A stretch of DNA of 64,000 nt. It comes from Loxodes magnus (lineage: Eukaryota; Ciliophora; Karyorelictea; Loxodida; Loxodidae). Shown in pieces: positions 316 to 60,679 of this stretch (positions within the stretch are counted from its first letter, which is position 1; each line of letters starts with the position of its first letter). The DNA is taken from assembly GCA_946699065.1 (NCBI GenBank), contig CAMPDV010000534.1, forward strand, positions 62,001 to 126,000. Reading direction: 5' to 3'. The position numbers were made by a program, and so were the translations under genes. A model generated the notes under the pieces. It did no database searches, was not told where the DNA came from, and worked only from the letters and a program-made list of their open reading frames with translations.

Positions 316-1761
316 TCAGTTATCCCCTTTAATACTTCTATAACTCAACTTTTCTAAATCAATCCTCATTATTGAAATTCTTTTCTATTCATAGCCAAAA
401 ACATATCCATAGACACCTCTTATTTTCATCTCCGTTAAAGCTGCAACATCTTTAAAAATTTAACTTTATTGCCATTATTCTTTTCTTCTTTTATATATTC
501 TTCTTGAATATTCTACTGTAGAACAATTTTTTATACCTCCGATTACGACAAAAGGTTCTAAAGAAACTATAGGACAAGCAACAGCTTCAGGAAGATTCAA
601 ATTTTACTTACTCCATCTATCATTCTATATGTTATACTTTCATATATCTTTTAAAGCTTATCCTTTCTAATCTCCACCTCCAAAAGAATAAATATTTTAT
701 TCATCTTTATCTACTACTAAAGTTTAGCCTGCTATTAAGAATGAAAATTAAGAGCATTTTTATCATTTACTTTAGTTTCCTATCTTTAACTTTTCTACTG
801 ATTATAACTTTTGATAATTATTAATAAATCCCCCAACCCCATAAAGATAATTTTAAGCTGCTGCTAATCCAAAATCACTTCTTCCCTCATTTAGATCACT
901 AAGTTTTGTATTATTACCTTCGAAATCGAACTATCAAGTTTCTTTTATTCCTTTCTTTTAATTTTAGTTTTATCCTCCAATTAAATATAACTTATTTTAA
1001 TATTCTATACTTTAATTGCCTTCATAAATTATAATTTAAACTTAGACTTATCGTAATTACTCAGTTTAAATATTAAATAAACTTAATTTTTAAATTCCTC
1101 AATTAAAAAAGTGAATATAGTTAGATTGAATAAAATGTTGCTACTAGGTTAGTTTATGTTAATTAGTCTGTTTAGTGTTTAACTGTTGTTACTTAGTATT
1201 GTATTATAGTTAGTTTCTTATTTGTGTGATATAATTTGAAGTTAATTTAGGGTTTAGTACTAAAGGTGGTTATATAGTGGAATATAGTTAGACTGTTATA
1301 GTTTGGATTTGAGTTGGTTTTAGATATTAGTAAATAGGGAATTAGGATGATTGTATAATATTTTAGTGTTATTAGTTGTAGTTAATGGTAGTGTATTGGA
1401 TGATATTAGTATATGGTATAATGAGAGTATTAGTAATGTTAGATAATTTGGTTGTAATGGTTTTAGATTTTTGCATAATTTACTTCCTTATCTCTTTTAA
1501 TTTCTATCTAGCATCTTAAATCTTTTATATGTATTATTAGTTTTAAAATATCATTCTTATTAAATCACTTTCTTAAGGTAAGTCTTCAAATCTAAAATGG
1601 AATCCTTTTTAACAAATAGGACATTACATTATGCCTTATAATCAGAACTGAGTATTCAAACACAAACCACAGTAAATATGTCCACAAGGTAAGACAGTTG
1701 GAAGAGCATTAGTTAAGTTGTAATCTTCTTAGCAGATTAAGCATTTTGGTAACGCTTACAT
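316..1761 (-). CDS. RING finger-coiled coil-Kelch repeat protein (probable E3 ubiquitin ligase)
   Basis: Read with TAA/TAG=Gln and TGA=Trp this is one uninterrupted frame of 481 residues plus TGA. The start is ATG at 1761-1759; RING, Kelch and stop codons are all in that phase. Residues 7-50 form a canonical C3HC4 RING: C7-x2-C10, C26-x-H28-x2-C31-x2-C34, C47-x2-C50, with 'PCGHIYC' and 'CPIC' clearly readable. A Lys/Gln-rich helix follows (about 75-110), then a Gln/Asn/Thr-rich linker to about 210. The C-terminal half has Kelch blades with 'KLYLIGGQNQN' near residue 260, 'NYLYGVGGF', 'IYSFGGGD' and 'VVIGG'. Family knowledge: RING recruits E2-ubiquitin and Kelch propellers bind substrates, so ubiquitin ligase activity is inferred. 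In-frame TGA gives the expected Trp in 'ETWQFD', 'SKWQKC' and 'DIWK'. The downstream limit is the first TGA after the last Kelch-like segment. No intron is needed. Confidence 0.88.
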
Positions 1762-11455: not shown

Positions 11456-11955
11456 TAAATAAATAAATAAATTTGATTATAGAGCGCGTAGCACTCTCGT
11501 TGGTGTGCAGCTCTTTAAAAAAAATGTTCCATACTAACAAGAATGTTTGCTACTGATAAAATTATCAGATACTGATAAACCTTGTTCAATACTGGTATAA
11601 TTATTCAGTACTGATAAAAATGTTAAATACTGATATAATTTTAGAATACTCGTAATCTTTAATACTTGCTGGAGGTCCAAGGACATGGCAGGATTGTGTC
11701 TCATTACATCACCAAAGCAGAGGACGACATGTGTCAATTATGGGTACTTAAATTCCCCACCTCTGATGAAGCTCGCAATATTATTTCTTTTTCGTTCCAG
11801 AATTAAAAATAAACGAAGCCAAGCCAATGCCGAAGGTCTAAGAATCTTATGTCTCGAGGCCAAGCCAAAGCAGAGGAAGACATAAAGTCGATTATGGGTA
11901 CTTAACTTCCCCGACCTCTGATGAAGATGACCTTGTTGTTCACCTTCGAACAACT
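11456..11955 (-). mobile_element. SINE-like retroelement, copy 1
   Basis: About 500 bp, near-identical to 21703-22245 in the opposite orientation. In its own direction it has: a 5' hairpin (GTTGTTC, six-base loop, GAACAAC); two copies of a 48-nt hairpin motif (11871-11920 and 11718-11765); the 'CCTGCCATGTCCTTGGACC' segment; a run of short repeats around 'TACTGATAA' (11550-11650); the 3' stem-loop at 11482-11513; and an AAAT/TTTA tail. The 3' end matches the LINE 3' end at 34478-34530. G+C is higher than the flanks. Short standard-code ORFs inside it are incidental. It resembles a composite SINE that borrows LINE replication machinery; no tRNA-like A/B box was seen. Confidence 0.82.
11482..11513 (-). 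other. 3' stem-loop of SINE-like element
   Basis: In element orientation the outer stem is GAGC/GCTC and the inner stem GCAC/GTGC, here with one substitution in the inner arm, followed by TATAAT and the TTTA tail. The same structure occurs at 16154-16184, 22147-22178 and 34478-34508. Its position suggests the reverse-transcriptase recognition signal. Confidence 0.7.
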
Positions 11956-14302
11956 ATGGCGGTTTTAAAAATATATTTAATATTAAGAGAGATAGTAAAT
12001 TTAGTAAAAATAAGTAATTTTGAAAGGTTTAATACATAGCTATTATATAAGGTAGCCTGTTTTTAGTAGTTAGAGACTTAATTTTAGTTTTGTTTATTGA
12101 TTTTATAATGGTAATTGATGTGAGTATCTGAGTAGTAGAAATGAGATAATGCAATCTAATACAATTTAAATAAAGATAAGGGGTTAAAATAAGATTATAA
12201 TTTTAGCTTACGCTTCGCTTTTAATTAAGCATAATATATATAATTAATTAATTTAAAAATTTTTTTACGCTAAATTTGTGATCTTAATTCATTTTCACTA
12301 TCTATTAATCTTTTTTTCACTTATCTTAGATTATATTCAACTTTTCTCTAAAATTTCTCTTGTTCTCCCTTGCTTAGTTTCTATTTCTTTTGTTTAGTTA
12401 ATTCATTATATAATAACGTATGTTCATAAGATTCCAAATCAATATTTGCCAATTACTTTTTAATATGACAAAATGCTTTCAATGTATATTTTCTTCCTTT
12501 TTTCTAATTTTCTTTAATGCAATCTTTTACTATAAAATCTATTTATTACCTCAGTTTTTCTTATTGATTACGTATTCAGTATTCAAATTTGTAACTGCCT
12601 TGTATTATGCTATTAGTTAAAAGTTTGGTAGATCTATTAGTTCTAACCTGTTATTGAAGTAAATGTTGTACAATTAAGATTTACATCTTTCTCTTTCTTG
12701 CATTTACTTATGATATGAGTTTCGTCTTATACTCCAATATTGCAGAATTTACAAATTATGATGTGCTATAAAGCAAAAAATAAAGAATTGTTGATTAGGA
12801 ATAATAAGATATATAATAATAGTAGATAATAAAATGTATTAAGAGTAAGTTATAATCTGCTAGATTAGTTTTAAATAACTTATATTAGCTAATCTAATAC
12901 TTATATTATCTCATACTACAAAGAAACATAATATGTTAAGTTTACTCTTTCTATTAATTCAGAAAATAATAATAGAAGATAGTAAAAATATGCTTCCTAT
13001 CTTAAAAGCTTATAATTTTCTTAGTAATAAACAAGTTATTTTAATAAAGAGAGTATTAAAAGTGTAACAATATAATTTCTATTTGTATAGAATAATAGAA
13101 TTAAGTTTTTATCTTTAAATAATCTAGAATAATTTAGGTATTACTAATTAGAAATGATAATTACAAAAATAACATAAATAATAAATATAATATTAGTTTG
13201 CTATAACAAGAGAAAGTTATCTAAATGTATTAATTATAACTAATCTAATATATTAATTAAAGAGAAACTAAATTTAAATTAATAACTAATAAAGCTAAAA
13301 GGATATAAGTATTTAATAGAAATAATTAAACATATTTAAGCTTATTTTAATAATAAAATTAAATATTACTATTTAATAATTGTAAGATAAAACTAGTGAT
13401 ACACCATTTCTAGTTAGTTTAAATATTTACTTTCTAATACTTCTATTTATTACATTTATATAACATGTTTTACTTAGAATCAGCATTATAAGAATAAATT
13501 ATATTAGTTTATTATTTTAAGAGAGACCTTTATAAATAAAAAGTTTTAATAAAATAATAGTAAGAAAAGTGGATAATTAAAAGATTCTATCTCATAAATT
13601 CTAAAAATGCTTTGCTTTAAATAATTTGATGTTTTATATATATAATCCCTATTCAAACTAATTAATAAGAAACTTATTTTATTTCATTTTTTTAATTAGT
13701 AAAAAGCTTAAAGAACTCATTTTTTCGATTAATTTTAAGTGTATAATAATAATTAATAACAATAGCTTTTAAAAAATGGTAATATTTTATTTATCATTTA
13801 AAAGGATCTATAAAGAAATAAGGTTTTCTTATTAAAAGTCTTTGATTTAAAACACAAATAAGTTGTAATTAATAAATGTATATTAAAGTTATTATAATAA
13901 GGATATAATTGTTCGTTATAAAACTTTTGATATAATAATTTATCCTTATTTTTAAAGTAAAAGATATAAAATAATTAAAATTGTAAAAGCTTGTACCCAA
14001 TTAGTTTAATATCTGTCTTGTTTTAAGACAAAAATATAATTAAAAAATAAATGTATTAGAAATAAGATATTTATAAATATGCTTAATAAATAATTTTATT
14101 GTTTAATTTTATTGAAATTAAGTCAGTATAATTTATTGAGTTATTTAAATTAAATAGTTATTGAAGTAAGTTATAAAAATTAAAATGGAGAAAAAATAAC
14201 TAGAGAAAAAAGAAAAGCAATTTACTAAATGTATTTTTTTAAGAAAACTCCTAAGAGCGAGAAACCACATTTTAGGGAAAATATCTCTACTTCATTTTAA
14301 GT
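11956..14302. other. AT-rich intergenic stretch
   Basis: Mostly A/T with frequent TTA/TAA runs and little complexity, especially 12780-14200. No domain, RNA gene or repeat family seen. The last few hundred bases presumably carry the WD40 gene promoter and leader. Confidence 0.45.
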
Positions 14303-15271
14303 ATGAAATTCTGCCCAACTTATGTTTTTAAAAACTAATAAACTAAATCAGTTATGACTAAAGTAAAGGTATTTCTTTAATATTTTTTAGACTAAGTACT
14401 CACTGGTCACACTTCTCCTGTTAGATCGGTATCCATATAAAGTGACCTGAATTGAATTGTATCAGGCTCAGGATATCTTGAATATTTGATAAAGATCTGG
14501 AATTTACAGACAGGTGCTCTCCTAAGAACTATAACAGGACATACCGGCTCAGTTTCATCGGTAGTAATCTCTCTTGACTCTAACTATATAATATCAGGAT
14601 CTGAAGATACAACCATAAAGATCTGAAATTCCCACAATGATGTTCTCATAAGAACTTTAACGGGACATACTCACTGAGTTAGATTGATAGTAATCTCCCC
14701 AGACTCTAGCTATATAGTATCGGGATCTAACGATAACACCATAAAGATCTGAAATTTCTACAATGGTGTCCTCCAAAGAACTATAACGGGACATACTCGC
14801 TATGTTATATCGGTAGTAATTTCTTATGACTCTAGATATATTATATCGGGATCTCGGGATACAACCATAAAGATCTGGGACTTCTAGACTGGTCAGCTTG
14901 TGCGAACTCTTACTGGGCATTCAGGCTGAGTTTTATCGGTAATATTGTCTAAGGATAATAGGTATATAATATCTGGTTCTGGTGACAGTACTATTAAGAT
15001 ATAGGACTTCTCTTCTGGTTAGTGTATTCGTACTCTTTAAGGTCATACAAGTGGTGTATCAAGTATTCAGTTAAGTGTTGATTCAAGTGTTATCTTTTCT
15101 GGTTCAAGTGATAAAACAATCAAGATCTGGAGCTTTGATAAGGGTGAGTGTATATAGACTTTGTAAGGGCATACAAGTTTAATAGAATCTATAGCATTGA
15201 GTGTTGATAATAGATGGCTGGTATCAGGAGGACTTGACAATACGATAAGAAAGTGGAGGATTTCGAGTTGA
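14303..15271 (+). CDS. WD40 repeat beta-propeller protein, seven blades
   Basis: Under the reassigned code this is 322 residues plus TGA (15269-15271). Seven consecutive WD repeats fill nearly the whole protein, each starting 'GHT' or 'GHS', with a central 'SGSxDxTIKIW'-type strand; the last ends 'SGGLDNTIRKWRIS'. Seven blades are enough for one closed propeller, so the protein is probably complete and acts as a scaffold; partners cannot be inferred. The 'IKIW' Trp of repeats 2 and 3 is TGA, as are the Trp of 'GHTHWV' and 'GHSGWV'. Gln in 'CIQTLQGH' is TAG then TAA. Blade 1 has extra residues before its terminal 'IKIW'. An alternative start is the in-frame ATG at 14354. No nearby gene suggests a pathway. 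Confidence 0.9.
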
Positions 15272-18284: not shown

Positions 18285-19614
18285 ATTACTCTCATTTATA
18301 AATTATTTCTATATTCTATTCATATATCCTATCCATAAAAAAAATTCAGAAATTTTAATTCTTAACTTAAAAACTTTTTTTTACTCATAAAATTTTTATC
18401 AAAAAATTCAAAAATTATTATTTTTACCAACTCTTTATTAAAAATACCTTAAAAATCCTCCTATACAAAAAAAAGCCTTAAATTAACAATATTTTCCCTC
18501 TTTTTAACTTTAACCCACAAATGTTACAAATAATAATTACAGTCTTATATAATATAATAGCATATATTATAACATATATAATAATTTAAATTACTTATTT
18601 AATTTTTATTTAAATCTCATATACTTAATTCTCTACTATCATTCAACTTTTATTTAATATATATATCTAAATTAATATATATACACATTACTTTATAACA
18701 TACAATTACTCTCATTAATCTCAATAACCATTTAAACCTTATTACATACCCCTTTTAACTAAAAAAATAAAACTAATTACAAGCAATAAAATCCTTATTA
18801 TACTCACTTATAAATATATACACATTCTAAAATCCATATTAAATTTAACACACAATATCTAACTTTTAAACAATCTCATTAATATAAACATTTAGCATTA
18901 AATAAAAATAACACCATCCTTATAAACTATATTTTAAACACTTATTATTAAATATATCAACCAAAATCTTAAAAATACTTATATACTATTTTCTTAAGTT
19001 GGTAAATGTAAAGAACATAACAATATTATTATTATTATTAAACACTCTTTAGTTCCTCATTTAAAACGTATCATATAATATTTAAATACCATAGTAATTA
19101 AAACAATGCATCTTAATATCTATCTAAACAATATACTCAACAACAGAAATATATGCATTATATATATAAATTATATAATATACTTTCATATACTTTTATA
19201 CACTTTTATATACCTAACATATAAATATGTAATTGCATATCTATACCTTTAAATACTACTTTTATACTAATACAAAACTACTAAGTCATATATTAAATTA
19301 AGTAGAGTTTTAAATAAACTATTTAAAGTAAATCCTTCTCTCATTTAGTCACTATAACTATGTAATATTGATCCTCACGTCCTATTTTAACTCATAAATG
19401 GCAACTCACCCCCTTATTTATTACTTTAAACATAACATACATTCTATAAAGCAATTATAAACAACTTACCTCCTATATCAAAGATTATTTTAAAAATAAC
19501 TTTTACGAACTAATAATAGAAAAAGAAACTATAAATACCCCTTACATTCTATTTATATTAATAAAACCATTACGAGCTAAATTGGAAACTTAAAATGATA
19601 ATTACGATCTATAT

Positions 19615-19965
19615 GTATAACAATATTAAAATACTTAACTTACCTATAAGTTAGGAATATTAAAATACTTACTTCCTATAAGTTTAGAATATTAAAATAC
19701 TTACGATCTATAAGTTTAGAATATTAAAATACTTACTAGCTATTAGTTAAGAATATTAACATACTTACGATCTATAAGTTTAGAATATTAAAATACTTAC
19801 TAGCTATTAGTTAAGAATATTAAAATACTTACCAACTATAAGTTAAGAATATTAAAATACTTACGATCTATAAGTTTAGAATATTAAAATACTTACTAGC
19901 TATTAGTTAAGAATATTAGCATACTTACGATCTATAAGTTTAGAATATTAAAATACTTACCTATA
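19615..19965. repeat. 32-bp tandem repeat downstream of ORF-B, copy 1
   Basis: About 11 copies of a unit like 'GAATATTAAAATACTTACGA' followed by 'TCTATAAGTTTA'. The period of 32 bp is not codon-phased. The equivalent site in the other duplicate (32585-33005) has longer monomers of about 38-40 bp, so the array was amplified separately in each copy. Confidence 0.85.
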
Positions 19966-20077
19966 AAATTATAAACTTTACTCTCTGTAATAGAAATATG
20001 TTTTGAAATTTGTATTACTTCCTAATTATATTAGACTAGAAATTTTTATTTACCATATCCTTTAAATAGTATAACAC

Positions 20078-21236
20078 TCACCACCTATTATTTTATAAAT
20101 AGAACTTACTCAATACCATTTTAAGACTATCTCCATTTACTATTTTGGTTTAAGCTATCGTTTAAGATTTATCCAAGATTTAACCATTCTTTAATAAGTC
20201 TAAATAAGGTGGCCATAACTTAGTTTATTATAAGATCTATTTTTTTATCTAACCGATAGTTGTATTTTATTTGACCTATAACTATAACGTCTTATTGTTT
20301 GGCGATATTATTGTTATATAGATAACCTAACTCTACTAAAGCTTTTATTAAGGCATAACTTAAATACTTTATTACTGATAACCTTATTAGTACTAGATAG
20401 ACTATTATTAAGGTTGCTATTAAATCTATTATTAAGGTATTTGAGGCTATTATTAATAGATCTACTATGTTTAGATAAACTAAGATGGAATCTATTATGA
20501 AACCTAAGTCTATTATTAAGAATATTGAATCTAAATGCTTTATATCTAACTCAACTATTTCGTAAGATTCTTATTCTCCTCAATGTATTTTTTTATTTAA
20601 CTTTCTAAAACACCTTTCTCTTATTAGCTAACCTAAACTTGATAATTTAATTTCTATAACTAATCCTAGTATTAACCATTAACCTTAGTTACTTATGTTA
20701 AAGAACTCTTAACATTCTCTAATTCCTCAAATATCCTTGTCGATATCTAAGATAACTATTAGATGACTCTTTAAGATTCATTAGTTAACTATGATATTCT
20801 CTAACTCAATTATGGATTGTCATAACTTAACTATTAAGAATTTCCTTACTGATTCTTCTTTATTTAGCTCTACCAGATTCTCAGAAGATTTAACTACTAC
20901 TTGATAACCTTAACTGATTATTTTAAGTCCTTCTATACAGCTAAACTGTCCTTGAAGACGAATAAATTGATATGCTATATCAACTACTAGATGAAAGTTG
21001 CTTATTACTTAACTAACTAAATACGAACTGATTTGACCGAAGCCTATTAACCTTCTAGCAAAGTTATGCTATCGAACAATCTCTTTGATTCCAAATAATT
21101 CAACAACTACGTATCCTTCTGTAAGTTTACGGGATGTATCTTATGAGGTAGTTAACATGATTACTAAACACATCTAATGGTCATAGTTCTTTAATACTAA
21201 TCAGATGAACAAGTGAAACAGATGTTGTGGGTACAT
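20078..21236 (-). CDS. Orphan protein ORF-B, copy 1 (C-terminal frameshift)
   Basis: Starts at ATG 21236 ('MYPQHLFHLF'), aligned with the start of the copy at 33118-34287 ('MLAQHLCRMF'). The copies align along the protein: 'DTSRKLTEGYVVVELFG' here versus 'DKSYKLIEGYSVVEVFG', then 'SYLVSQVISNFHLVVDI', 'EGLKIISQGYQVVV', 'LVELNKEESVRKFL', 'YLYNNNIAKQ'. Many differences are synonymous under the ciliate code, including CAA/TAA and TAA/TAG exchanges at Gln, which supports coding. Residues about 239-300 are very Ile/Leu-rich and could span membranes. The TGA matching the stop of copy 2 (20078-20080) is one base out of phase here, so the C-terminus differs or the gene is damaged. I recognise no domain; function unknown. 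Confidence 0.62.
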
Positions 21237-21702
21237 GGGAGAACTATAGGAACTTTCATCTAGCTCTCGAAATCTCCTTAACACGATTAACATCTAATGT
21301 TTTAGGACATTTCTTTTATTATTATTATGAAAATTTTACCCTTGATGTAGTAATAATTAATCACTGAAATTTACTAATTTTAACAGAATTAAATAAAAAT
21401 AAATAATAAATATTATACTTAACCATTTAATTTTTAAATATTATAAAATAAATTTAAATTTAAATTACTAATATTAATTTATAATATTTAAGATTATTAA
21501 ACTAAAATAGAATTATTAATATAAAAATATTTAAATATATAAAATTAATAAAAAAATTAAACATTTTTTAAAACTTTATTATTAAAAATAAAGAATTTAA
21601 AAATATAATAATAAATAATGATATAATTATTACTTCTTACTTAATTTTAAATTATAAAATAAAATAGCTATAAACCATTTATTACTATTATTATTATATT
21701 TT

Positions 21703-22245
21703 TTAAAGCTGCCATAGTTGCTCAAAGGTGAACAACAAGGTCATCTTCATCAGAGGTTGGGAAGTTAAGTACCCATAATCGACTTTATGTCTTCCTCTGC
21801 TTTGACCTCGAGACATAAGATTCTTAGACTTTCGGCACTGGCTTAGTTTAGTTTTAATTCTGGAACGAAAAAGAAATAATATTGCGAGCTTCATCAGAGG
21901 TGGGGAATTTAAGTATCCATAATTGACACATGTCGTCCTCTCCTTTGGTGATGCAATGAGACACAATCCTGCCATGTCCTTGGACCTCCAGCAAGTATTA
22001 AAGATTACGAGTATTCTAAAATTATATCAGTATTGAGCATTTTTATCAGTACTGAATAATTATACCAGTATTGAACAAGATTTATCAGTATCTGATAATT
22101 TTATCAGTAACAAACATTCTTGTCAGTATGAAACATTATTTTTAAAGAGCTGCGCACCAACGAGAGTGCTACGCGCTCTATAATCAAATTGATTTATTTA
22201 TTATTTATTTATTTATTATTTATTTATTTATTTATTTATTTATTA
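21703..22245 (+). mobile_element. SINE-like retroelement, copy 2
   Basis: Same element as 11456-11955, opposite strand, similar length. It has two hairpin motifs (21751-21799, 21895-21942), the TACTGATAA-type repeats, the 3' stem-loop 22147-22178 and a long TTTA/TTATTTA tail (22190-22245). The paralogous segment at about 35635 lacks it: there 'TTATTATTATTAG' runs straight into 'AAATAAAATACTTTATAA'. That empty site shows the element is a discrete insertion. No clear target-site duplication can be delimited in the A/T-rich flanks. Confidence 0.85.
22147..22178 (+). other. 3' stem-loop of SINE-like element
   Basis: The best-preserved copy of the stem-loop: GAGC, TGC, GCAC, an eight-base loop, GTGC, TACGC, GCTC, then TATAATCAAATTG and the TTTA tail. 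Outer and inner stems both pair perfectly. Confidence 0.75.
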
Positions 22246-30329: not shown

Positions 30330-31149
30330 TTTTTAACTCTCATTATAAATCTTTATTTTAAATCCTATCATAAATTCTATCCATAAATTTAGATCAGAAA
30401 TTTTAATTTTTAACTTAAAAAAATATTATTTTTTACATATAAATTTTTTAACCTTAAATATAAAAACTATTTTTTACCTTTTTAATGTTAAAAAAAACTT
30501 TAATAACTTTTCTATCCAAATGCTTTCTCTTTTAATTTAGATTATATTTTTTCCTCTTACTAACTTTAACCTCAAAATTACCAAAAAATTTTTCACTCAT
30601 AATATATCAAATAGTATAACTTAAATAATAATATAAATTATTTTAAAATCTAAATTAGAATCTCAACTATTTTAAATTTATTGCTCTACAAGATTTTATT
30701 AGAAATGAATCAAATTAAAAATTATACACAACTATTCTTAAAACATACAATATCATATAACCTCACTTATCATTTTAAATATAAAATACCTTTTTTTACT
30801 CAATACCTAAACTCATAACAAACAAAAATAAAGCCTTTACTATTCTCACAAAATTTATACTTTATATACTCTAACCTTTTAAATTTAAATACACGATAAA
30901 CTACATTAAAGCTATATTTTAAATAGAACTATAGAGCATTAATAAAAAAACACTTATATAACCATAACCATAAATTTAAATGCATAATATTAAATAAATC
31001 ACTTAAATCTAAGCATACTAAATACTGCTTTCTTAAATTGGTAAATTTAAAGAACATAACTAATATTATTATTATTGAACACAATAAACTTCAAAATCTT
31101 TTAAATCATGCCATAGAATATCAACACCTTAATAATGAAACTAATATGA

Positions 31150-31160
31150 AATGACTAATT
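31150..31160. repeat. Target-site duplication, left
   Basis: AATGACTAATT, repeated exactly at 32132-32142 on the other side of the coiled-coil element. Paralogous copy 1 lacks the element at this position. Confidence 0.8.
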
Positions 31161-32131
31161 AATAATAATATTAATTTTGAGTTTTCCGTTTTAGGGATTT
31201 CCAACCCCGTCAGGAGGACAGCAGTTCATGCTCCCTGCTGTTAAATATAAATGTTTGGGACGTCCAATTTTAAAGAGATTGGGAACTCGGATTTCTCCAG
31301 GTTTTTCTTCCTTTTACTTGATATGGTTCCATCTTGATCTTGTATATTGAATCATCCGGGTTGCAATACATTCTTTTCATTATTGCTTCTTCATTTTTCT
31401 TCTTTTGTTGTTCTTTTATCCAATAGCTTCTTTTTTCTATTAGAATTTCTAACACTTTCGATAAAAATGTCATACGCTTCCATAGCAGAAACATTTCTTT
31501 TTTATTTTGAATTATTTTCCTTGATTTATTTGCTCTTTCTAGGCTTCGATTTCCATTTGTATAGCTCCAGTTTCGCTTTACTCTTTCTTAAAAGTTTACA
31601 ATTTCTCTTCTACTTTTCCGAGTGTTCTATCCAGTTCAGTCTGTTTCTAAAGCTAATTTTAGGATTCGTTACTCTGACTTTGTGAGATATTCCAAAAGGC
31701 GTTAAAATCTCTTTTCTAGGACATAAATCTTGACTCAATTCCTTTTGCTAGGTCTAGCTTTGCCATCAGCATATCATTGTCCTTCTTCAATCTCTTGATC
31801 TCTTTCTGGAGGTTCAGTACCACTTTGATGAGCTACTCCATGTTCATCTGGCCAGAAGGGTTGAACTCTGATACCTCCTGGTGGAGAACAGACTTCATCT
31901 GTTTCTTCGGTTTCTCGCTTGAGGTTGGAGTTTCCGTGTGTATATTCTTCAAGGTTGGCTTTCGTTCGTTTTGTTAGATTCCAAGTTGTTAGTTCAGTAT
32001 TGGTTAAGGTTGTGATAGAGAAGATTGTTAAGATTATTAAGACTTGGTTTCTTGCTTCCTCCCTTCCCTTTTGGCTTAGGAAGAGGTGGTATAGAAGCCT
32101 GACTTGAAGCCTTCAACCATTTTTTTGATGC
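31161..32131 (-). mobile_element. 971-bp coiled-coil-encoding retroelement insertion
   Basis: Bounded by the 11-bp direct repeats at 31150-31160 and 32132-32142. In minus orientation it starts just upstream of an ATG, encodes a coiled-coil protein, and ends in a short ATT-rich tail (31161-31175), as expected for target-primed retrotransposition. A related copy lies at 59095-60132. No reverse-transcriptase motif is present, so it is non-autonomous or an ORF1-only unit. Confidence 0.75.
31190..32120 (-). pseudogene. Coiled-coil protein (ORF1-like), frameshifted
   Basis: From ATG at 32120 the central part reads as a long amphipathic helix: 'EVSEFNPSGQMNMEQLIKVV', 'LNLQKEIKRLKKDNDMLMAK', 'LDRTLGKVEEKLQTFKKEQ'. 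Gln at several heptad sites is TAA or TAG. The relative at 59095-60132 conserves this core ('EITEFNLSSQMSMEQLIKVV'). The N-terminal part and the last 250 bases read best in other frames ('AMEAYDIFIESVRNSNRKKK', then 'FPISLKLDVPNIYIQQQGA' before a TGA), and the other copy has different breaks. This suggests decaying copies rather than introns. By family analogy, LINE ORF1 proteins are coiled-coil RNA chaperones; assignment to ORF1 is inference. Confidence 0.6.
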
Positions 32132-32142
32132 AATGACTAATT
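32132..32142. repeat. Target-site duplication, right
   Basis: AATGACTAATT, identical to 31150-31160. Confidence 0.8.
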
Positions 32143-32584
32143 TAAATAAAAAAGAACTTTAAATGCTCAAAAGATAAATTAAATTAAATTTACCCTATAT
32201 ATAATATACTTTTATATACCTTACACAAAAATATATAATTGCATGCCAATACCTTTAATAAACTCGTTTATTAGTTGCAAAGATATTATATAATTTTTTA
32301 GATTAAGTAGAGTCTAAATAAAGTATTAAAAGCCATTCATTCTCTCAGAATATTTCACAGTTATTTTCAAGAAATCCTTGTTTCTATAAATCACCTTACC
32401 CCCTTATTAATAGTTTTAACAAATACAACATACATTCTATAAACAATAATAAATAAATAGCTTACTTTCTAATTAAAGATTATATTAAAAATAACTGTTA
32501 CGATCTAAATAGTAAAAACTATAAATACCTCTTACATACTATTGATATAAATAAAATATTACGATCTAAATGAAAACTTAAAAT

Positions 32585-33005
32585 GTACCCCCTATATGTT
32601 AAGAATATTAAATACTTACCATCTATAAGTTTTAAAGAATATTAAATGCTTAACTTACATACTATAGATTTTAAAGAAATTAAATGCTTAACTTACGATC
32701 TATAAGTTTTAAAGAATATTAAATCCTTACCAGCTAGTTTTAAAGAATATTAAATGCTTAACTTACTCACTATAAGTTTTAAAAAGAATTAAATGCTTAA
32801 CTTACATTCTATAATTTTAAAGAATATTAAATGCTTAATTTACCCCCTATAAGTTTTAAAGAATATGAAATGCTTAACTTACATTCTATAAGTTTAAAAG
32901 AATATTAAACTGCTTAACTTACACACTATAAGTTTTAAAGTATATTAAATGCTTAATTTACCCCCTATAAGTTTTAAAGGATATTAAATTCTTAACTTAC
33001 CTATA
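32585..33005. repeat. 38-40 bp tandem repeat downstream of ORF-B, copy 2
   Basis: About 10 copies of a unit like 'TATAAGTTTTAAAGAATATT' followed by 'AAATGCTTAACTTACA'. It occupies the same place relative to ORF-B as the 32-bp array at 19615-19965 and shares its core, but has a longer monomer. Confidence 0.85.
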
Positions 33006-33117
33006 AATAAAATTATAAACTTTACTCTCTGTAATAAAAATATGTTTCAAAATTTGTCGCACCTCCTATTATATGGACTAGAAATTTTTATACCTTCGGC
33101 TTTAAATAGTATAACAC

Positions 33118-34287
33118 TCACCACCTATATATTATTTAAAATAGAACCTACTCAATTCCATTTGAATAGTATCTCCATTCACTATTTCAATCTCAGCTAT
33201 TGCTTAAGAATCATTATCCAAGATTTAACCGTTCTTCAATAAGTCTAAATAATATGGCCATAATTAAGTTTATTATTTGATATATTCCTTTATCTACTTG
33301 ATAGTAGCATCTTATTTTACCTAGAGCCATAATGTCTTCTTGTTTGGCGATACTATTGTTATAGAGATATCCTAACTTTACTACTATAGTTGCTAAGACT
33401 GTTAAGGCTACTATTAAGCCTATTATTAAGTCTATTATTAAGACTTTTATTAAGATTTTTATTAAGATTTTTATTTAGGTATCTAAGGTTATTATTAATA
33501 GTTCTACTTTGCTTTGATAAGCTAAGATGGGAGCTATTATGAAGCCTAAGTCTTACTCTTCTATTATTGAATCTAAGTGCTTTATATCTAACTCAACTGT
33601 GTCGCAAGATTCTTATTCTCCTCAACTAATATCTTTATTTAATTTTCTAATGTACCTTTCTCTTATTAGTAAGCCTAGACTTGATAATTCAACTATTATA
33701 ACTAAACCTAGTATTAACCGCTGACCTAAGTAACTTAAGTGTAAGAACTCTTAACATTCTCTAAATCCTCGAATACCTTTTTCGATACCTAAGATAGTTA
33801 TTACATAACTCTTTAAGCCTCATTAATTAACGATTATATTGCCTAGCTCAATTGAGGATTATCGTAACTTAACTAATAGAATTACTATGAATTTCCTAAC
33901 TGATTTTTCTTTATTTAGTTCTACTAGATTCTTAGAAGGTTTAGTTACTACTTGATAACCCTAGCTGATTATTTTAACTCCTTCTATAAAGCTAAGCTGT
34001 CCTTAAATACGAATAAATTGATATTCTATATCAACTACTAGATGAAAGTAATTTGCTACTTAGCTAACGAAATATGAACTGATTTTATTGAAGCCCATTA
34101 ACCTTCTAGTAAAGCTATGCAATCGGGCAATCTATTTGACTCCAAATACTTCAACAACTGAGTATCCTTCTATAAGTTTATAGGATTTATCTTATGAGAT
34201 AGTTAACAATTTTAGTTGAAACATTTGATACTACAATTTTACTAGTGCTGCTAAAAGGAACATTCTGCACAGATGTTGTGCTAGCAT
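33118..34287 (-). CDS. Orphan protein ORF-B, copy 2 (intact)
   Basis: Uninterrupted 389 residues plus TGA (33120-33118) under TAA/TAG=Gln, TGA=Trp; start ATG 34287-34285 is conserved with copy 1. Readable landmarks are 'MLAQHLCRMFLLAALVKLQ', 'SSYFVSQVANYFHLVVDIEY', 'FIEGVKIISQGYQVV', 'NKEKSVRKF' and 'LGYLYNNSIAKQEDIMALGK'. A very hydrophobic Ile/Leu region precedes the last 100 residues and is encoded by TTAATAATA-type repeats, so low-complexity DNA contributes to it. TGA as Trp occurs three times near the C-terminus. Conservation of frame between copies, with synonymous Gln exchanges, indicates selection on protein at some time. No family recognised; it could be a host gene duplicated with its surroundings or an accessory gene of an unknown element. 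Confidence 0.68.
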
Positions 34288-34477
34288 GGTAGAATCATAG
34301 GAATCTTGTCCTACCCATCGAAATTTCCTTAACATGAATAACATATAATGTTTTAGGACATTTCTTTCATTATTATTATTTTTAGAAAATTTTGCCCTTG
34401 ATGTGGTAAAAATTAAACATGGAAATTTACAATTTTTAACAGAATTAAATAAAAATAAATAAATAAATTTGATTATA

Positions 34478-34508
34478 GAGCGCGTAGCACCTCGTTGGTG
34501 CGCAGCTC
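34478..34508 (-). other. LINE 3' stem-loop
   Basis: GAGC...GCTC outer stem and GCACC...GGTGC inner stem, nearly identical to the SINE-like 3' stem-loops at 11482-11513 and 22147-22178. The shared block also extends upstream ('GAAACATT', 'TTAAAGAGCTGCGCACC'). Confidence 0.8.
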
Positions 34509-34521
34509 TTTAATAAATGTT

Positions 34522-35307
34522 TCAATACATGTCTATTTCTTCAAGTAAGCCTTCAGGTAATAAAAATTCTTCTCTTATTAGTTCCATATCTTCATCATTT
34601 TCTTCTTCAATATCTCTTGTTCTTCTGTCTTCTATCTATCTACGTTTTATTGATTCTTCGTTACAAGCGTCCATTGTTTTTTTTACATACTTTGCTAATT
34701 TTCGTTTCTAATTCTTTTTTTCTTAATCAAGCTTTTATAAACTCATAAAAATTATCCTTTTCCTGCTCTATAATATTTTCCTATTTCTTTTTTTCATTCA
34801 ATTTTCTTTTCTAAGTATCCTTTTTTTCTTTTTTCTAATATGTTTTTGATATAATCTTTTATTATCAAGTCAGTTTTAGCTCTTTTTTACTCTTCTTAGG
34901 TTCTAATGAATTTTTTGAATTTTGCCGTACCTCATATTATATCAAATAGTTCCATTCCTTGTCTTTCTACTCCTATTGTTCTTAACTTTCTAATACATAT
35001 TTATCTACTTTCTTTGTATTCTGAGCATTTTTCTATGATATGCCTTTCGTTTTCTCTTGTATCATTACAGAAAGGGCATTTGCTTGTCGCAACTAGGTGT
35101 CTTTCTTTTAAACAATCCTGGCTCCCATTACATCTCGTTCTTATTCTAAATATGTAGCATATTTCTTCTTTTCTATTTTTATTGTATCTCAGGTAGTTGG
35201 GTGGTCCTACTACATATTCATCAAATCATGTTTTTCTATACTGTAGAGTTGTTATCATTTACTCCATTCTTTCTCTATCTTCTATGTATACTCTATGTTC
35301 TCAAATT
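34522..35307 (-). pseudogene. LINE ORF2 C-terminal fragment with zinc knuckle
   Basis: Reads 'LVATSKCPFCNDTRENERHI' then 'IEKCSEYKESRQICIRK', a C-x2-C-x8-H-x4-C zinc knuckle (35024-35078) typical of the region after the reverse transcriptase in LINE ORF2 proteins, preceded by 'GPPNYLRYNKNRKEEICYIF' and 'RIRTRCNG'. The extreme C-terminus is acidic ('RDIEEENDEDMELIREEFLL', 'PEGLLEEIDMY') and ends at TGA 34524-34522, 14 nt before the 3' stem-loop. Between the zinc knuckle and the acidic tail the frame changes once, so this copy is damaged. Gln codons here include TAA, and TGA appears at 'RKTW' and 'DIIWG'. Reverse transcriptase and endonuclease domains are missing through truncation. Confidence 0.85.
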
Positions 35308-35796
35308 GCACGATTAATAATAAATATAATACTTAAACATTTATTTTTACTAATATTACAAAATAAATTAAAAATTTAAATCACAAACATAACTTTACTA
35401 TTTAAGATAATCAAGCTAAAATACAAAAATTATAAAAAATTAAATAAAAATTAATAACAAATATTGATAAAAAATATATAATTTATGAAATACAAATAAA
35501 AAACATTAATTTAAATTTTTAAAACCTTATTTCTAAAAATAAATATTTAACAATATGATTAAAAAAAGTTACACCATAATAATTACTTCTTACTTAATTT
35601 TAGATTAAAATAATTATTAATTTTTTATTATTATTATTAGAAATAAAATACTTTATAAAAAAAATTAAAAAAATAAATTAGAGCTTTATTTTAAAAAATA
35701 AAATAAAACAAAAAATATATAAAAAATAATCAAAATCTTAAATACAAAAATATAAATTAATAATTAAAATATATATTTAGTTTATTTTAATTTTAT

Positions 35797-36112
35797 ATAT
35801 GAAAATTATTAAAATAAGAGAGTTCGTAAAATCTACTGCTGAATAGATAAAAAGCTTTTATTTCAACTTATTCAGTAATTTTTCATCTTTCACTTTGTAA
35901 TCATCCATTATATAGCCAGCCATTAAAGCTAAAATCCTTCAACTTTAGATAATCTTTGATAGATCAAAGTTTTGCTAAATTGCAAAGACATCTCGCTCGA
36001 GCTAGTATCTAAAGTTCCATAAATAAAATAGTCGATTATAAAGCTGATATACCGCTAAATCAATCCCCTTGATTGTTTTATATGACTAAATATGTAGAAT
36101 TAGTGCATAAAT
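35797..36112 (-). pseudogene. ORF-A coding remnant, copy 2
   Basis: Counterpart of 22375-22690. Minus-strand reading gives 'LDTSSSEMSLQFSKTLIYQR' and 'LSKVEGFQLQWLAIQ', then after TATATAATGGA (ATG at 35908) a second frame 'MDDYKVKDEKLLNKLKQK'. The frame change is at the same place as in copy 1. Protein unrecognised. Confidence 0.45.
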
Positions 36113-38610: not shown

Positions 38611-38694
38611 CCGGCAATAGCTCAGCTGGAAGAGCATGAGACTGTAGAATTAGTGGAAATCTCAGGGTCCTCGGTTCAATCCCGAGTTGCCGGA
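38611..38694 (+). tRNA. tRNA-Tyr(GTA) with 11-nt intron, copy 1
   Basis: Cloverleaf is clear: acceptor CCGGCAA/TTGCCGG with discriminator A, D arm GCTC/GAGC, anticodon stem TGAGA/TCTCA, loop CTGTAGA with anticodon GTA, T arm CTCGG-TTCAATC-CCGAG. An 11-nt intron sits directly 3' of the anticodon loop, the usual eukaryotic position. A T-run follows the gene, as expected for Pol III termination. Identical to 43496-43579. Confidence 0.95.
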
Positions 38695-43495: not shown

Positions 43496-43579
43496 CCGGC
43501 AATAGCTCAGCTGGAAGAGCATGAGACTGTAGAATTAGTGGAAATCTCAGGGTCCTCGGTTCAATCCCGAGTTGCCGGA
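43496..43579 (+). tRNA. tRNA-Tyr(GTA) with 11-nt intron, copy 2
   Basis: Identical over all 84 nt to 38611-38694, including the intron; about 11 nt upstream and 22 nt downstream are also the same, whereas the more distant flanks have diverged. Anticodon GTA, pairing and T-run terminator as in copy 1. Confidence 0.95.
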
Positions 43580-44114: not shown

Positions 44115-44185
44115 TGGTCCCACCGAGACTCGAACTCAGATTGTTGGATTCAGAGTCCAAAGTGCTACCATTACACCATAGGACC
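44115..44185 (-). tRNA. tRNA-Gln(CTG)
   Basis: Acceptor GGTCCTA/TGGGACC with discriminator A, D arm GTGT/GCAC, anticodon stem TTGGA/TCCAA, loop CTCTGAA with anticodon CTG, T arm CTGAG/CTCGG. It reads the ordinary CAG codon. The Gln tRNAs needed for UAA and UAG (anticodons UUA and CUA) are not in this window. No intron. Confidence 0.95.
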
Positions 44186-47100: not shown

Positions 47101-50100
47101 ACTTTCTTTTGAAAGAATAAAAATGAAAGGCGTAATAAAAAAATTAATTGGGATAATCGAAAGATACTAAAAAAGGCCTTTTTAGATAAAAATTATCAGA
47201 GAAAATTCTATCAAACTCTATTAAATTTGATATCTAGCCTTTATAAGAAGAAAACTAAAGGATGATAGCTAAGTGAAAGAATCCATAAAAATACATTGAA
47301 GCGAATCAAAATTGATAAAAAAATTTTGGATGATTGAAATGATTCTAGACATAAATTTCAAACTTTTAAGCTAAAAAGCGTTAAATATAGTCTAATTATC
47401 TTCTCAAAATTTTATTTGTAAAATTCTCTGGCTTAAAAAATAAAAAGTAGACTAAGAAGAGAGATAGTAAATCCTATATAAATAAGCAACTTTTAGTGTA
47501 AATTTAGAACAATTAAATTAAGTTTAAAGTTCAGGAGAAACCCCAAATCTTGGAATCTAAATATTAGATATGAAGAACAAACAGTATATCTAATTAAATA
47601 ATATCATCCTAATCCTTTTCTGTTATGAGGATTATTCTAATTAAGTCTTTTGTTATTTATAAAGAAAGCAGAAATAATTTACAAGTTACTAAGCAAAAAT
47701 AAAAAATGATGGAATAAAGCTAATAATAAAATTTTAGCAAGTCAATCCTTTGAAAACTGCTTGATATGCAAACTAGTTGTAAAAATTAAAAGGATTTAGA
47801 AAGAATGCCTTACGACATAAAGAACATAAATATAATGATTTGGAAACAAATTTTTTTTAAAGGAATAAGAAATGTTTAAATTAGCAAAATTTCTATGCTA
47901 GAACTGTATAAATATGAGATTTGTTTACCAAATTTTTTCAAGCATAACTTTAATAGATAAAAAGTAAAAATAATTAAAGAATCATAATTATGGTAACAAA
48001 GGTTGAGATTTATCCAGTTGAACAAAAGTAGTTGCAAAAGATAAAAAATCATATTTAGAATACTTTTGATAAGTTACTTATGGGTAAAATTAGAAAAGTT
48101 TATAGAAAGCAACTGGTAATTTTTAAAATAGTCAGTTAAATCCAATTAATAAAATGAAATATAAATTATTTCAAAAAAGAGTTAATCTTGAATATTTCAT
48201 AATAAGATACTTTTAAATTAAAGCTCTGCTTTGGCATATAAGAAACATAGAAAAAGCATTTTCTAATTCATATTTTCCCACTGTTTAAAATAATTCTATC
48301 ATTGATAGATTTTAAACTTAGATAGATTCAAAATTTAAAAATCCTGAAGTTTGTTAATAATTTTGAGATTTGAATTATATGAATTTGGAAATCTTAATTG
48401 AATTCTAAATTTCAGAAAAGATAGTTGGATAGATGGAAAATTTTGAGCTTTAAAAATCTATTTTAAAACTTTAAAGTAAAAGTAATAAGAGCATTTCAAA
48501 TTAATTTCTTTATGGGTTATAAGTAATTCTTTATATATTTTAAATTTTGGATCTCTTAAATTAACAATTTCTCAGTTTTTTTAAATGACTATCCCACAGA
48601 ATTACTAATTAGTGCTTATCTTTATTTTCCCAAGCTAACTAAAACATTCTTTTTTACCCCTAATTTATTATTATACTCTTTATTACCTTTTTGTTTATAA
48701 ACTGAGTTTATAATTCAAAATTAAAAAATCCTAAAATCTTTTCATTTGGTTTGATCAACATATTATTAAAAAGTTTTTGTAGCCAATCCTAGATTAAATC
48801 TTGGATTTATTATTAATTATTAATTAAAATATTTGCCTTACTTCTCCTTTATATCTGGTTAATTATTAAGATTAAATATTCTCTTTAAAAGATCTACTTA
48901 TTATTAAAGTCACTTCTACGCAATCTTTTTCACTTTTTTCACTTTTTTCACTTTTTTCACTTTTTTCACTTTTTTCACTTTTTTCACTTTTTTCACTTTT
49001 TTCACTTTTTTCACTTTTTTCACTTTTTTCTAATTTTATAAATGAATGCTCATTATCAAAAAGGAAATTACATTCTCTATATCTACGATAAAATTGTTCT
49101 TAGTACTTTCGCATTTATTTTATATTTAAAATACATTCTTTAGATATAATTCAATCGATTAGATGAAGAGTGTACTATCTAGTTAGAAAAAATTACTTTT
49201 TCTCTTGAAATTTGAATACATTTTCATATTTAAAGATCTTAAAGGCAGAATTTAGATTTAAAACAGGGACATTTTCTTAATTTTGACATGCTTAATGAAA
49301 AATAAATTAAGGAGGATCTAGATTTTTATCCCAAAGTGCATTATATTTGCACTTTTTTTATTATTTGAAAGATTAGAATTTTGAATAAGTCTGCTTAGAA
49401 TTTATCGTCCTAACTAAGCTTATTAAGTTCAAATAAAAAAGAAACTTGGGGAACTTTAAATTAAAATGAAAATACACTTACAATTCTGTTTTTAAAACTA
49501 GAAGGAAAGTACAGAAGGATCTTAAGATTTTAACCTGAAAATAGATAAATGATAGATATGTGTTTTTTAGTTTTCCTAATTAAAATAAAAATATAATTGT
49601 TCTTTAGCTTAATATACTTCTTGGTAACCTTTATATTTAGTACATAGAAAACTGGTAAATAAAAATTGGCAATACAAGTTATTAATGCAGACACTAAAGA
49701 TAAAAAATCTAAATCTGAAGAATCAATTTTTTAATTAGATCATTGATTTCGACATGATTTCGATGAGAAAGGGATTCTATATTTGAGTTTTGATTGATAA
49801 ACAAAATAATTAATAAAGTTGTGTTTGACAATGCAAAAACACCTAAAGTGAGAAGCTTTAAGTGTTTTACTTCTTTTATTTTCAAGTTTTCTCTCTTATC
49901 CTTGATTCTAAAGTCAATATCTGAGAAAATACACGTGGTATGCTTTTCAATTTTCCAGGCGTCTTTCATCTAATTTAATAACTTAAAGATTCATTCTTTA
50001 AGTTATAAGAGATTGAATCAGCTTCAGTATGCAAGCGAACGTGAATATAGCTTTTTATGGAATTTCTAAGTGAAAGCAAGAAAAGAAAAACTTCGATTTT

Positions 50101-57693: not shown

Positions 57694-57760
57694 AACAGTG
57701 TGGCCGAGTGGTCTAAGGCGCTAGTCTTTCGGGGCGTGGGTTCAAATCCCACCACTGTCA
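57694..57760 (+). pseudogene. tRNA-Leu pseudogene lacking the anticodon arm
   Basis: Matches eukaryotic tRNA-Leu: D arm GCC/GGC with AGTGGTCTAA, long variable arm TCTTTCGGGGC, T arm GTGGG-TTCAAAT-CCCAC, acceptor ACAGTG/CACTGT. Between 'GGCG' and the variable arm only CTAG remains where an anticodon stem-loop is expected. CTAG is self-complementary, so both arms of a CTAG stem are the same sequence; recombination or slippage between them would remove loop and one arm in one step. The first acceptor pair is also mismatched (A opposite C). A T-run terminator follows. Confidence 0.85.
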
Positions 57761-58091: not shown

Positions 58092-59094
58092 TTATAGAAT
58101 CTTCCTTTTCCTTTACTTAAGAATAAGAATATCGCTAATAGCAAAATCACTATCCTTTCATTCTACTTTACTCTAGACTTTTTTCTTTCAACTTTAGTTG
58201 AGAAATAAACTATAAATTTTAGTTTCTAAGTTAAAGGTAAAATAACTCTAGTAATACAGTTAATAATATACCCAAAAGGAAAATATAGGAATGCAAATTT
58301 TGCATCCTCTATTAGTTTTAAAAGGCTCCACTTTGCGATTTTTATACAAGGGACTAAAATAATAAATTTAGAAGCTTTGAAAATTACTAAAAAGCAGATT
58401 TTAAAAAGACATAACACATCCAGATTTTAAGGGCATTCGATGGCTATTTAAACCATAATATCAAAGTATAGCATACTAGGGTTGCTCTACCTTTATTACT
58501 ATATAATTCTACTATTTTTAATGGTTATCTGATCTCAGTTATTTTCAATTGCTAGTATTGCCTTAATTTTATTAGTATGTTTTAAAGCTTTAACAAGGAA
58601 TAAATTTAAGAGCTAAAGACTAAGAGATAAAAGTTTATAGAATGATATGATAAGGATAAAGAACAGTGAATATAGACTAGCAATTAAGATAATTTAATCT
58701 GACTTTTTAGGTTTAATTTTATATAATCTGTTCTACTAAAAATCATTTGGAAGCAAAAAGAAGCAGGAACTTTTATAAATTTGAAAAGGAATCTGAGGGA
58801 ATTATTTTTCGTTTTCGTGTTATGAAGATTTCAGAAATACAAGCAGGGAAAACTACAAAAAAGTTTTAGAAAAGAGTTAATATGAATGAATTAAGATATT
58901 TTTGGATTTTCATATGTTTATACGATGTTAATCTTAGATGAAATATTTAACTTAATCTTTTTACCGCTACTCAACTTTTTTTTGTTAGTTAATAGATAAT
59001 AATTTGAGCATCGATAAAATAAAATAAAGTTAAAATATTAGTTACGATATTAAGATTAAGTTTCATTATTACTATGAAAAAATGTTTGGTCTTC
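58092..59094. other. Unassigned AT-rich stretch
   Basis: No domain, RNA gene or repeat seen. Confidence 0.4.
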
Positions 59095-60132
59095 TTGTAA
59101 GTATTTCAACCTATTTCTAGCCTGCCTCCAGATTGCTCCGGAGGCTAAAATTAAATGTTCGCACTCCACCCATTGTCCTGTCTTGCTTGCTCGTAGAATC
59201 TCTAGTTTCTCTTCCATTACTAGTATCCTTTTTTCTTGTGTATATTCCCAAGAGTGTTCATCTATAGCTGTTCTCTATTCCTTCTAAATTTGAGCTATTG
59301 CTACCTCTTCCTTTTTTCCTACTGTTATCTTTGCTTTTTCCAGTAACTCTATTTGAAATTTAGGAAATTCCTACGCTTCCTTCACAAGTGTTCTCTTGAG
59401 TCATAGTAGTAGCAGAATTTCACTTCTCGCTTGTACAAAAGCTTGTCAACTTTAATTTTATCGATCTCCATCTTGTCTTAAAGCTAATCCCTTGATTCAA
59501 TTTACTTTTGCAATGTTTGCTGATTTTTTACTAGCTGTGCTAATTTGCCGTAAATTTCTCTGTATTTTTAATCTTGATTCTGGAATTAGCAGTTCTACTC
59601 TGGGATATGTTGCAGAAAGCGCTTAGATCTGTCTCCTGAGACATGAGCCTTGATTCAATTTCCTCTTACTTGTTCAGATTCTCCATTAGTTTGTCATTGT
59701 CCTTTTTCTGCTTCCTGACCTTTTCTGGAGGTTCAGTACCACTTTGATGAGCTATTCCATACTCATCTGACTAGATAGATTAAACTCTGTGATCTCCTAG
59801 TGAAGAGCAGACTTCATCTGCTCATTGGCTTCTCTTATGAGTTTGTAGTTATTGCTTGTGTTGTCTTCTAAGCTTGTTTTGTTCCTCTTCAAGTTATTAG
59901 GACTAAAAAAGAGGTTAGTATTGAGGGTAAGAAGACAATCTAAATTAAGATTCAGTTTTCCTCTCCAACTTATTGGAGGTGGTGCAGAAACCTCTTTAGA
60001 ATCCTTCCATCCTATTTTATACCAAAGATTAAGTTTCAATACAGCAAATTTAATTATGATTGTGCGTATAAAAATATAGCTATACTTATTTATGGTGATA
60101 TATATACGCTGGAATAAATTGAATATTGTCAA
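59095..60132 (-). pseudogene. Coiled-coil (ORF1-like) element, second copy, frameshifted
   Basis: Related to 31161-32131. The N-terminal frame (ATG 60132) reads 'KDSKEVSAPPPISWRGKLNL', then 'NNYKLIREANEQMKSALH', Gln (TAG), 'EITEFNLSSQMSMEQLIKVV', 'LNLQK'. One base lost after that moves the coiled coil into another frame ('LMENLNKQEEIESRLMSQET'), and a further shift gives 'KEEVAIAQIQKEQRTAIDEH' and 'WVECEHLILASGAIWRQARN'. The C-terminal part is longer than in the other copy. Multiple independent shifts indicate a decaying copy. A CCTCC/GGAGG hairpin lies at about 59126-59150. Confidence 0.6.
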
Positions 60133-60679
60133 GAACGAGAGTATAATTAACTAAAGCCCAGATAAGGAGAGCTTAACTTCAACGTTTCGAGTAATTTCTT
60201 AGATAATTAATCTAAATTTCCTTAACTCCCGCATACTCTCTTCTTCCCTCATTTTAATAGTTGTCTTCCTCTAAAATTTCTAATTAATCTAGACATTCAA
60301 AACAAATAGCGAAAAATATATCAAATTTGAAGCTTCGATTATAAAATCAGTTTAGCTTTATATGAACCAAATAAACAATTTCCCCGTTTAAAAGTCTCAA
60401 ACCTATCTTTTTTTATTTAAATAAGACTTATTTAATCTCTTTTTTCTATTATTTCTCATATAGTACTGTAGGTTATTTTAAGGACTTCGCTTGATTAATT
60501 TTGTTAAATAAGATGTTTATATAGACCAATGAAGCCGTCATTTTTATATGTTCTACTAGCACTGTAAAGAAGCTTATTAAAAGGAATGCATTATCAGTAA
60601 TGTGTGCAGTTAGGTATTTATTTATGATAATAGAAGTAATAGTAGTTTATTATTGTGGCTCTATCATTATTAGGCTAAC
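60133..60679. other. Unassigned AT-rich stretch
   Basis: No recognisable feature before the ATT microsatellite near 60680-60705. Confidence 0.35.

Follow-up and report, generated by a model that had tools for sequence, protein, structure and literature searches.

In the karyorelict ciliate Loxodes magnus, the published nuclear code is table 27, in which UGA is read as Trp or stop, and transcripts are reported to give UGA as the sole stop in Loxodes (PMC11441545). In a study of 943 gene families, karyorelicts stop at UGA and Loxodes reads UAR as Gln; for Kentrophoros, that study called the reassignment of UAA unclear (PMC6935857). The L. magnus somatic genome was reported by Seah and colleagues to span 706 Mbp and to carry thousands of retroelement copies (PMC11441545). 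For Condylostoma and Parduczia, sense has been proposed as the default, with nearness to the transcript end making a codon a stop (PMC4967479). All three stops are reported to be sense codons as well in the dinoflagellate Amoebophrya sp. ex Karlodinium veneficum. A code with three stops as sense codons is already in print, and the only thing new here would be a possible residual stop role of UAA. The wider question is how one codon stays sense inside a gene and is a stop at the gene end.

We analysed a 64-kb stretch of DNA (the window; bases 62001-126000 of contig 534) and searched the 705,730,643-bp assembly that contains it, focusing on a WD40-repeat gene in the window. We conclude with high confidence that this gene is written in the karyorelict nuclear code (table 27) in a genome that is almost certainly that of Loxodes magnus, with UAA and UAG read as Gln and UGA read as Trp inside the gene and as stop near the mRNA 3' end. 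That the codons have these meanings, and that genes use TGA as their end, is supported by the tests described below. Like the table 27 systems, Parduczia and L. magnus, the genes here have UAA and UAG as Gln and UGA as Trp inside and as stop at their ends; an AT-rich stretch past the stop and a likely 22-nt intron in a second gene family, ORF-B, also match karyorelicts, the latter falling within published sizes. Unlike table 27, an H3-variant gene, L058, appears to end at UAA, which is not a stop in that table. As in Condylostoma magnum (table 28), where the published meaning depends on the distance to the 3' end, the three codons are sense inside genes. All three are reported to terminate in C. 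magnum, whereas TGA ends 30 of the 32 genes counted here and TAG none. Blastocrithidia is similar in that three stops are reported as sense, UGA is Trp and Ser70 of eRF1 is changed (Gly there, Ala here), and differs in that it reads UAA and UAG as Glu and stops at UAA, in contrast to Gln and UGA here.

The WD40 gene is open through all three stop codons

After the window was re-translated with table 27 and searched as protein, the WD40 gene (Table 1) was open over its whole length and showed seven WD40 repeats. Pfam WD40 (PF00400) matched the product in seven stretches (6.7e-74), and PDB WD40 chains matched with a best value of 2.7e-134. The frame contains 7 TAA, 4 TAG and 5 internal TGA codons under table 27 and ends at TGA. 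Thus, the claim of a sequence-only reading of this DNA, that the gene runs through TAA, TAG and TGA yet terminates at TGA, is borne out as an open frame. Under table 11, no complete ORF of at least 150 aa was found in the window, a warning for genome scans that the standard code can return nothing of that size in 64 kb where real genes are present. The gene has a GC content of 35.5%, and the 200 bp past the terminal TGA one of only 17.5%; these figures are close to those published for L. magnus, where coding sequence has 33.5% and the 3' UTR 18.6% (PMC11441545).

The same reading had placed TGA at the invariant Trp of WD repeats and of a GHTxWV motif. Among the seven WD-repeat Trp sites, four were TGG, two TGA (codons 108 and 150) and one TAG (codon 234, read as Gln); a further TGA (codon 51) sits at a variable site. 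Codons 125 and 209 are TGA at the GHxxWV position, and here the claim goes too far, as the Trp is not invariant: among the aligned PDB chains listed, 2ymu and the designed chains have Ser, and Tako8 has Ala at codon 209. The reading had also assigned TAA and TAG to Gln positions. In alignments read by eye, 6 of the 11 TAA/TAG codons fell within the PDB alignments listed; three of them (codons 240, 246 and 288) stood opposite Gln in at least one listed chain, as claimed, while codons 195 and 285 faced Lys or Arg and codon 234 faced Trp.

To identify the residue that best fits each codon, every in-frame TAA, TAG or TGA was replaced by each of the 20 residues and the alignment was rescored. With a 2ymu-type query, Trp was best for TGA (212.6 bits, n = 5), followed by Tyr (209.4 bits). 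For TAA, Ser was top (210.1 bits) and Gln lay outside the top six; for TAG, Arg was top (211.4 bits) and Gln fourth (208.1 bits). With Tako8 as query, Lys and Arg were top for TAA and TAG, and Ala exceeded Trp for TGA (383.8 vs 294.9 bits). This jump for Ala is probably due to domain joining, yet Tako8 itself has Ala at one TGA site. Because the scan is weak for TAA and TAG and did not put Gln first, the WD40 gene alone shows that these codons are sense and not which residue they give.

Table 1. Positions of the features discussed (window coordinates unless a contig is given)
Feature	Position	Strand	Remarks
WD40-repeat gene	14303..15271	+	table 27 translation, 322 codons + terminal TGA
WD40 gene, sense TGA (first bases)	14453, 14624, 14675, 14750, 14927	+	from codon numbers
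WD40 gene, sense TAA (first bases)	14336, 14339, 14378, 14393, 14438, 15038, 15164	+	
WD40 gene, sense TAG (first bases)	14885, 15002, 15020, 15155	+	
WD40 gene, terminal TGA	15269..15271	+	
RING-Kelch gene	316..1761	-	RING and Kelch profile matches; ends without homologue support, introns ignored
RING-Kelch gene, internal TGA (first bases)	1644, 1101, 936, 765, 642	-	
RING-Kelch gene, terminal TGA	318-316	-	
ORF-B copy 1	about 20078..21310	-	paralogue of copy 2; start approximate
ORF-B copy 2	about 33047..34361	-	start approximate; TAA/TAG-rich
Duplicated pair	19166-21417 / 32174-34477		76.6% identical
GT..AG block, copy 1	20060-20081		22 nt; likely intron
GT..AG block, copy 2	33100-33121		22 nt; likely intron
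tRNA-Gln(CUG), ordinary	44115..44185	-	cognate to CAG, not TAG
tRNA-Tyr pair	38611-38694, 43496-43579	+	identical genes, 11-nt intron each
tRNA-like sequence	57694-57760	+	Rfam 42.3 bits
Inverted repeat pair	11458-11986 / 21682-22202		~530 bp, 93% identity
Tandem repeat	48926-49030		11.7 copies
H3-variant gene L058	C327:221690-222034		end TAA TAA TAA

TAA and TAG behave as Gln codons in conserved genes

The genome contains two eRF1 copies (L013 and L014), both on contig C196; a frame on contig C2 (L009/L012) that was first taken as eRF1 reads as Pelota. The eRF1 product agreed with PDB chain 4d5n_A, which we take to be human eRF1, at 233 of 428 columns. TAA stood opposite Gln of this chain at 7 of 13 sites and TAG at 2 of 6 aligned sites. 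In the residue scan, Gln was the best of the 20 residues for TAA (522.9 bits, n = 13), with Glu next (514.4 bits), and was also best for TAG (511.4 bits, n = 7), again followed by Glu (509.8 bits). The margin of Gln over Glu was 8.5 bits for TAA and a small 1.6 bits for TAG, and eRF1 thus did not give the Glu reading of UAA and UAG found in Blastocrithidia. Of the two residue scans, only that of eRF1 is usable.

Histone H3 offered a comparison with ordinary Gln codons. In five H3 genes aligned to a reference chain, with a divergent stretch left out in three of the five, TAA was opposite Gln at 11 of 16 sites and TAG at 10 of 12; in the same genes, the ordinary codon CAA matched Gln at 11 of 16 sites, and CAG did so at all its sites (3 of 3). 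TAA and TAG therefore align to Gln in H3 about as CAA does. Read as sense, TAA and TAG open the frames of eRF1, H3, H2A, H2B and ORF-B.

For TGA, support for Trp came from few sites: one WD40 query of two, plus the NF-YC family. An NF-YC-like gene (L071) has TGA at the Trp of the RSW motif in NF-YC-3 (two chains, both NF-YC-3), and a second gene (L070) gave the same reading at TGA.

Tandem WD40 arrays were rejected as a codon test for Trp because their units are too homogenised, and they give no support for UGA as Trp. Across the window and 13 loci, 165 distinct units were compared: the Trp column held 144 TGG, 10 Cys, 3 TGA and 1 TAG, and TGG was absent from three other columns, in which 12, 45 and 27 units had TGA. 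These TGA columns also hold Ser, Arg, Leu, Phe or Cys, and a simple change of TGG to TGA is no explanation for them. WD40 arrays on contigs C1503, C119, C9, C620, C272 and C1832 have a spacing of ~126 bp over tens of kilobases, and some of their open frames exceed 2,000 aa.

Most genes counted end at TGA

We counted gene ends in 29 histone-fold genes, the two eRF1 genes and the WD40 gene, paralogues included, with C-terminal motifs read from the translations. TGA ended 30 of the 32 genes, TAA two and TAG none. Ends lay near those of PDB relatives only in H3 (5/5 TGA), H2A (5/5), eRF1 (2/2) and the WD40 gene; in other families the end was set where relatives in the same genome agree or at TGA. 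The histone-fold genes are 29 of 31 matches, the other two (C243:303439-303753 and C699:138238-138534) having been left out since an examined match has the same score and stop counts. Pelota, RING-Kelch and ORF-B are outside the count.

The sense TGA nearest to any end was 40 codons away (n = 8), and none of the eight fell in the last 20 codons. Of 114 TAA codons, 4 lay in the last 20 codons of a gene, compared with 19 of the 193 remaining Gln codons (Fisher p = 0.045, paralogues counted separately). For the last 10 codons the figures were 0 of 114 and 6 of 193 (p = 0.088, paralogues again counted separately). In published L. magnus data, UAA is depleted ahead of stops and UAG is not (PMC11441545). 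Since paralogues are not independent, the depletion of TAA near ends seen here is weak support for that published effect.

An H3-variant gene appears to end at UAA

Six H3-variant genes (L055-L060) have most of their sequence in common, and four of them end at TGA. L058 has three TAA codons in a row at its end (Table 1), with no in-frame TGA for 176 codons past them, and its GC content, 40% up to the TAA, is 17% beyond it. L055 has TAA where its sister L056 has TGA; a TGA follows five codons on, so the end of L055 is ambiguous. Compared with its closest sister, L056, L058 has a dN/dS of 0.023 at a dS of 1.08, and compared with the other four H3 variants its dN/dS is 0.077-0.129. With these low values, L058 looks like a working gene rather than a relic.

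An intron at the end of L058 could lead to a TGA downstream. No GT..AG block of 15-45 nt was found around the end, and longer blocks measured 47, 67, 69, 89 and 90 nt. With the 67-nt block spliced out, a TGA would be reached after 23 codons, and with the 47- or 89-nt block spliced out, after 59 and 52 codons, respectively; splicing of the 69- or 90-nt block brings no TGA into view. L. magnus introns are reported to have a mode of 17 bp, with 93% at or below 25 nt, and the published pipeline allowed up to 40 nt (PMC11441545), which makes such long introns unlikely in L058.

On the plain reading of its sequence, L058 appears to be ended by UAA. Other causes of such an end could be a mistake in the assembly, a haplotype not seen here or an intron of unusual length. 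A tentative reading, to which we give a little less than an even chance, is that near the mRNA 3' end UAA would act as a weak stop, that three in a row would end L058, and that UGA and UAA, not UAG, would be position-dependent stops while all three codons are sense. A weak stop of this kind would explain why UAA, and not UAG, is depleted before stops in the published data. L058 together with that depletion suggests a residual stop role for UAA. We found no report of a UAA-ended karyorelict gene in the literature searched, which did not include the 2022 karyorelict-code paper, and we make no claim of priority. With an end that appears to be UAA only, in a species taken to be UGA-only, L058 is a natural case in which to test whether a Gln codon can become a stop solely through its distance from the 3' end.

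Alternative codes and a pseudogene

The same gene bears on whether the genome uses a Condylostoma-like code (table 28), in which TAA, TAG and TGA are each sense within genes and each a possible stop near the 3' end. Such a code would accommodate L058, a gene under purifying selection whose end reads TAA TAA TAA, with a GC drop and a long TGA-free stretch behind it, as well as the TAA of L055 at the place of the TGA of L056, and the published depletion of UAA but not UAG before stops (PMC11441545). We nevertheless consider table 28 unlikely, given that TGA accounts for 30 of 32 ends and TAG for none, albeit in a small sample, and that published transcripts give UGA as the only Loxodes stop (PMC11441545), in agreement with the 943-family study (PMC6935857).

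That the WD40 gene is instead a pseudogene, with its in-frame TGAs as nonsense mutations in a genome using the standard code or table 6, we judge very improbable. Five TGAs would indeed break the frame under table 6, the literature describes a genome rich in retroelements, and the gene's own residue scan is weak. However, reading through TAA and TAG is needed equally for the frames of eRF1, H3, H2A, H2B and ORF-B, TGA stands opposite a conserved Trp in the unrelated NF-YC family, and five more internal TGAs occur in the RING-Kelch gene. We also hold it very improbable that the DNA is from a different organism with three stops as sense codons, such as Amoebophrya or a Blastocrithidia flagellate; for the latter, the eRF1 scores of Gln over Glu and the TGA ends speak against it. 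Taken together, eRF1, H3 and the ends at TGA support the karyorelict-type code of the sequence-only reading, with UAA and UAG as Gln and UGA as Trp or stop, a conclusion that is qualified by L058.

eRF1 and tRNAs

Both eRF1 copies keep NIKS and have RAQ in place of TAS (RAQNIKS). Both also have Ala in place of Ser at a site that we equate with human Ser70, assuming an offset between the chain's numbering and the human one. In L013, more in-frame TGA codons follow the stop (DEDFL-TGA-VG-TGA-V-TGA). In Blastocrithidia, UGA readthrough has been tied to changes at eRF1 Ser70; Ala at this Ser, numbered 67 in the source, is stated for ciliates with sense UGA (PMC12153298, PMC12440015). This is a paradox: eRF1 is altered at the Ser that senses UGA, and UGA nevertheless serves as the main stop. 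In our main reading, UGA is read as Trp within genes and as a stop close to the mRNA 3' end. Drawing on the literature, nearness of the poly(A) tail may decide between Trp and stop at UGA, and Ala at the Ser70 site may weaken UGA recognition such that a stop would be enforced only beside the tail.

The window carries an ordinary tRNA-Gln (Table 1). A genome pattern search gave 152 matches; in the 100 listed, every anticodon was CTG or TTG and none was cognate to UAA or UAG. A tRNA scan of the retrieved loci returned Gln(CTG), Gln(TTG) and Thr(CGT) only, and none for UAA or UAG.

Other genes and repeats in the window

A self-trained codon model gave 15 segments in the window, which are partly repeats; a second codon model and a model trained on known genes were used for gene finding only and not for counts. 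The sequence-only reading had named three further genes with the same codon pattern. The RING-Kelch gene has 5 internal TGA, 53 TAA/TAG and a TGA end, in a frame whose start and end are placed without a homologue anchor. For a LINE ORF2 end the claim was not confirmed, as no reverse-transcriptase match at E<=0.01 was found on the minus strand in 31000-36000 and 58500-64000.

The third was ORF-B copy 2, and we took the duplicated pair in Table 1 to be the ORF-B of that reading. The layout is a RING-like start (read by eye), a Gln-rich middle and a C-terminal ubiquitin-like domain, which in copy 2 matched PF00240 (3.1e-7). Over 386 filtered codon columns, the two copies had the same residue at 270 and an identical TAA or TAG at 48. 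Swaps between the copies were TAA/TAG at 9 columns, TAA/CAA at 3 and TAG/CAG at 3; swaps with Lys codons (TAA/AAA 3, TAG/AAG 3) were as frequent as those with CAA and CAG. No TGA was found in the body of either copy or in any swap, and copy 2 thus fits the claimed pattern in being rich in TAA and TAG and does not fit it at sense TGA. Both copies carry the same 22-nt GT..AG block, which is likely an intron. Copy 2 ends at TGA (33049-33047) only if the block is spliced out. Copy 1 reaches a TGA (20080-20078) if unspliced and is without a nearby TGA if its block is spliced. We had considered copy 2 as a TAA-ended gene and dropped it, because the block is common to both copies and splicing leads to TGA.

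TAG was seen at Trp sites more than once: the ORF-B copies have three TAG/TGG swaps, and the WD40 gene has TAG at 15002-15004, the Trp of repeat 5. These may reflect chance, Gln replacing Trp, or a rare Trp reading of TAG.

The tRNA-Tyr pair sits in a flanking repeat of ~200 bp with 87% identity. The tRNA-like sequence was missed by ARAGORN and has a shortened anticodon arm; it looks like a truncated Ser/Leu tRNA. The inverted repeat pair has coding-like scores in several frames and on both strands, and is therefore likely not coding; it is perhaps a short interspersed repeat. Finally, the window contains a perfect nine-base tandem repeat, TTTTTCACT.
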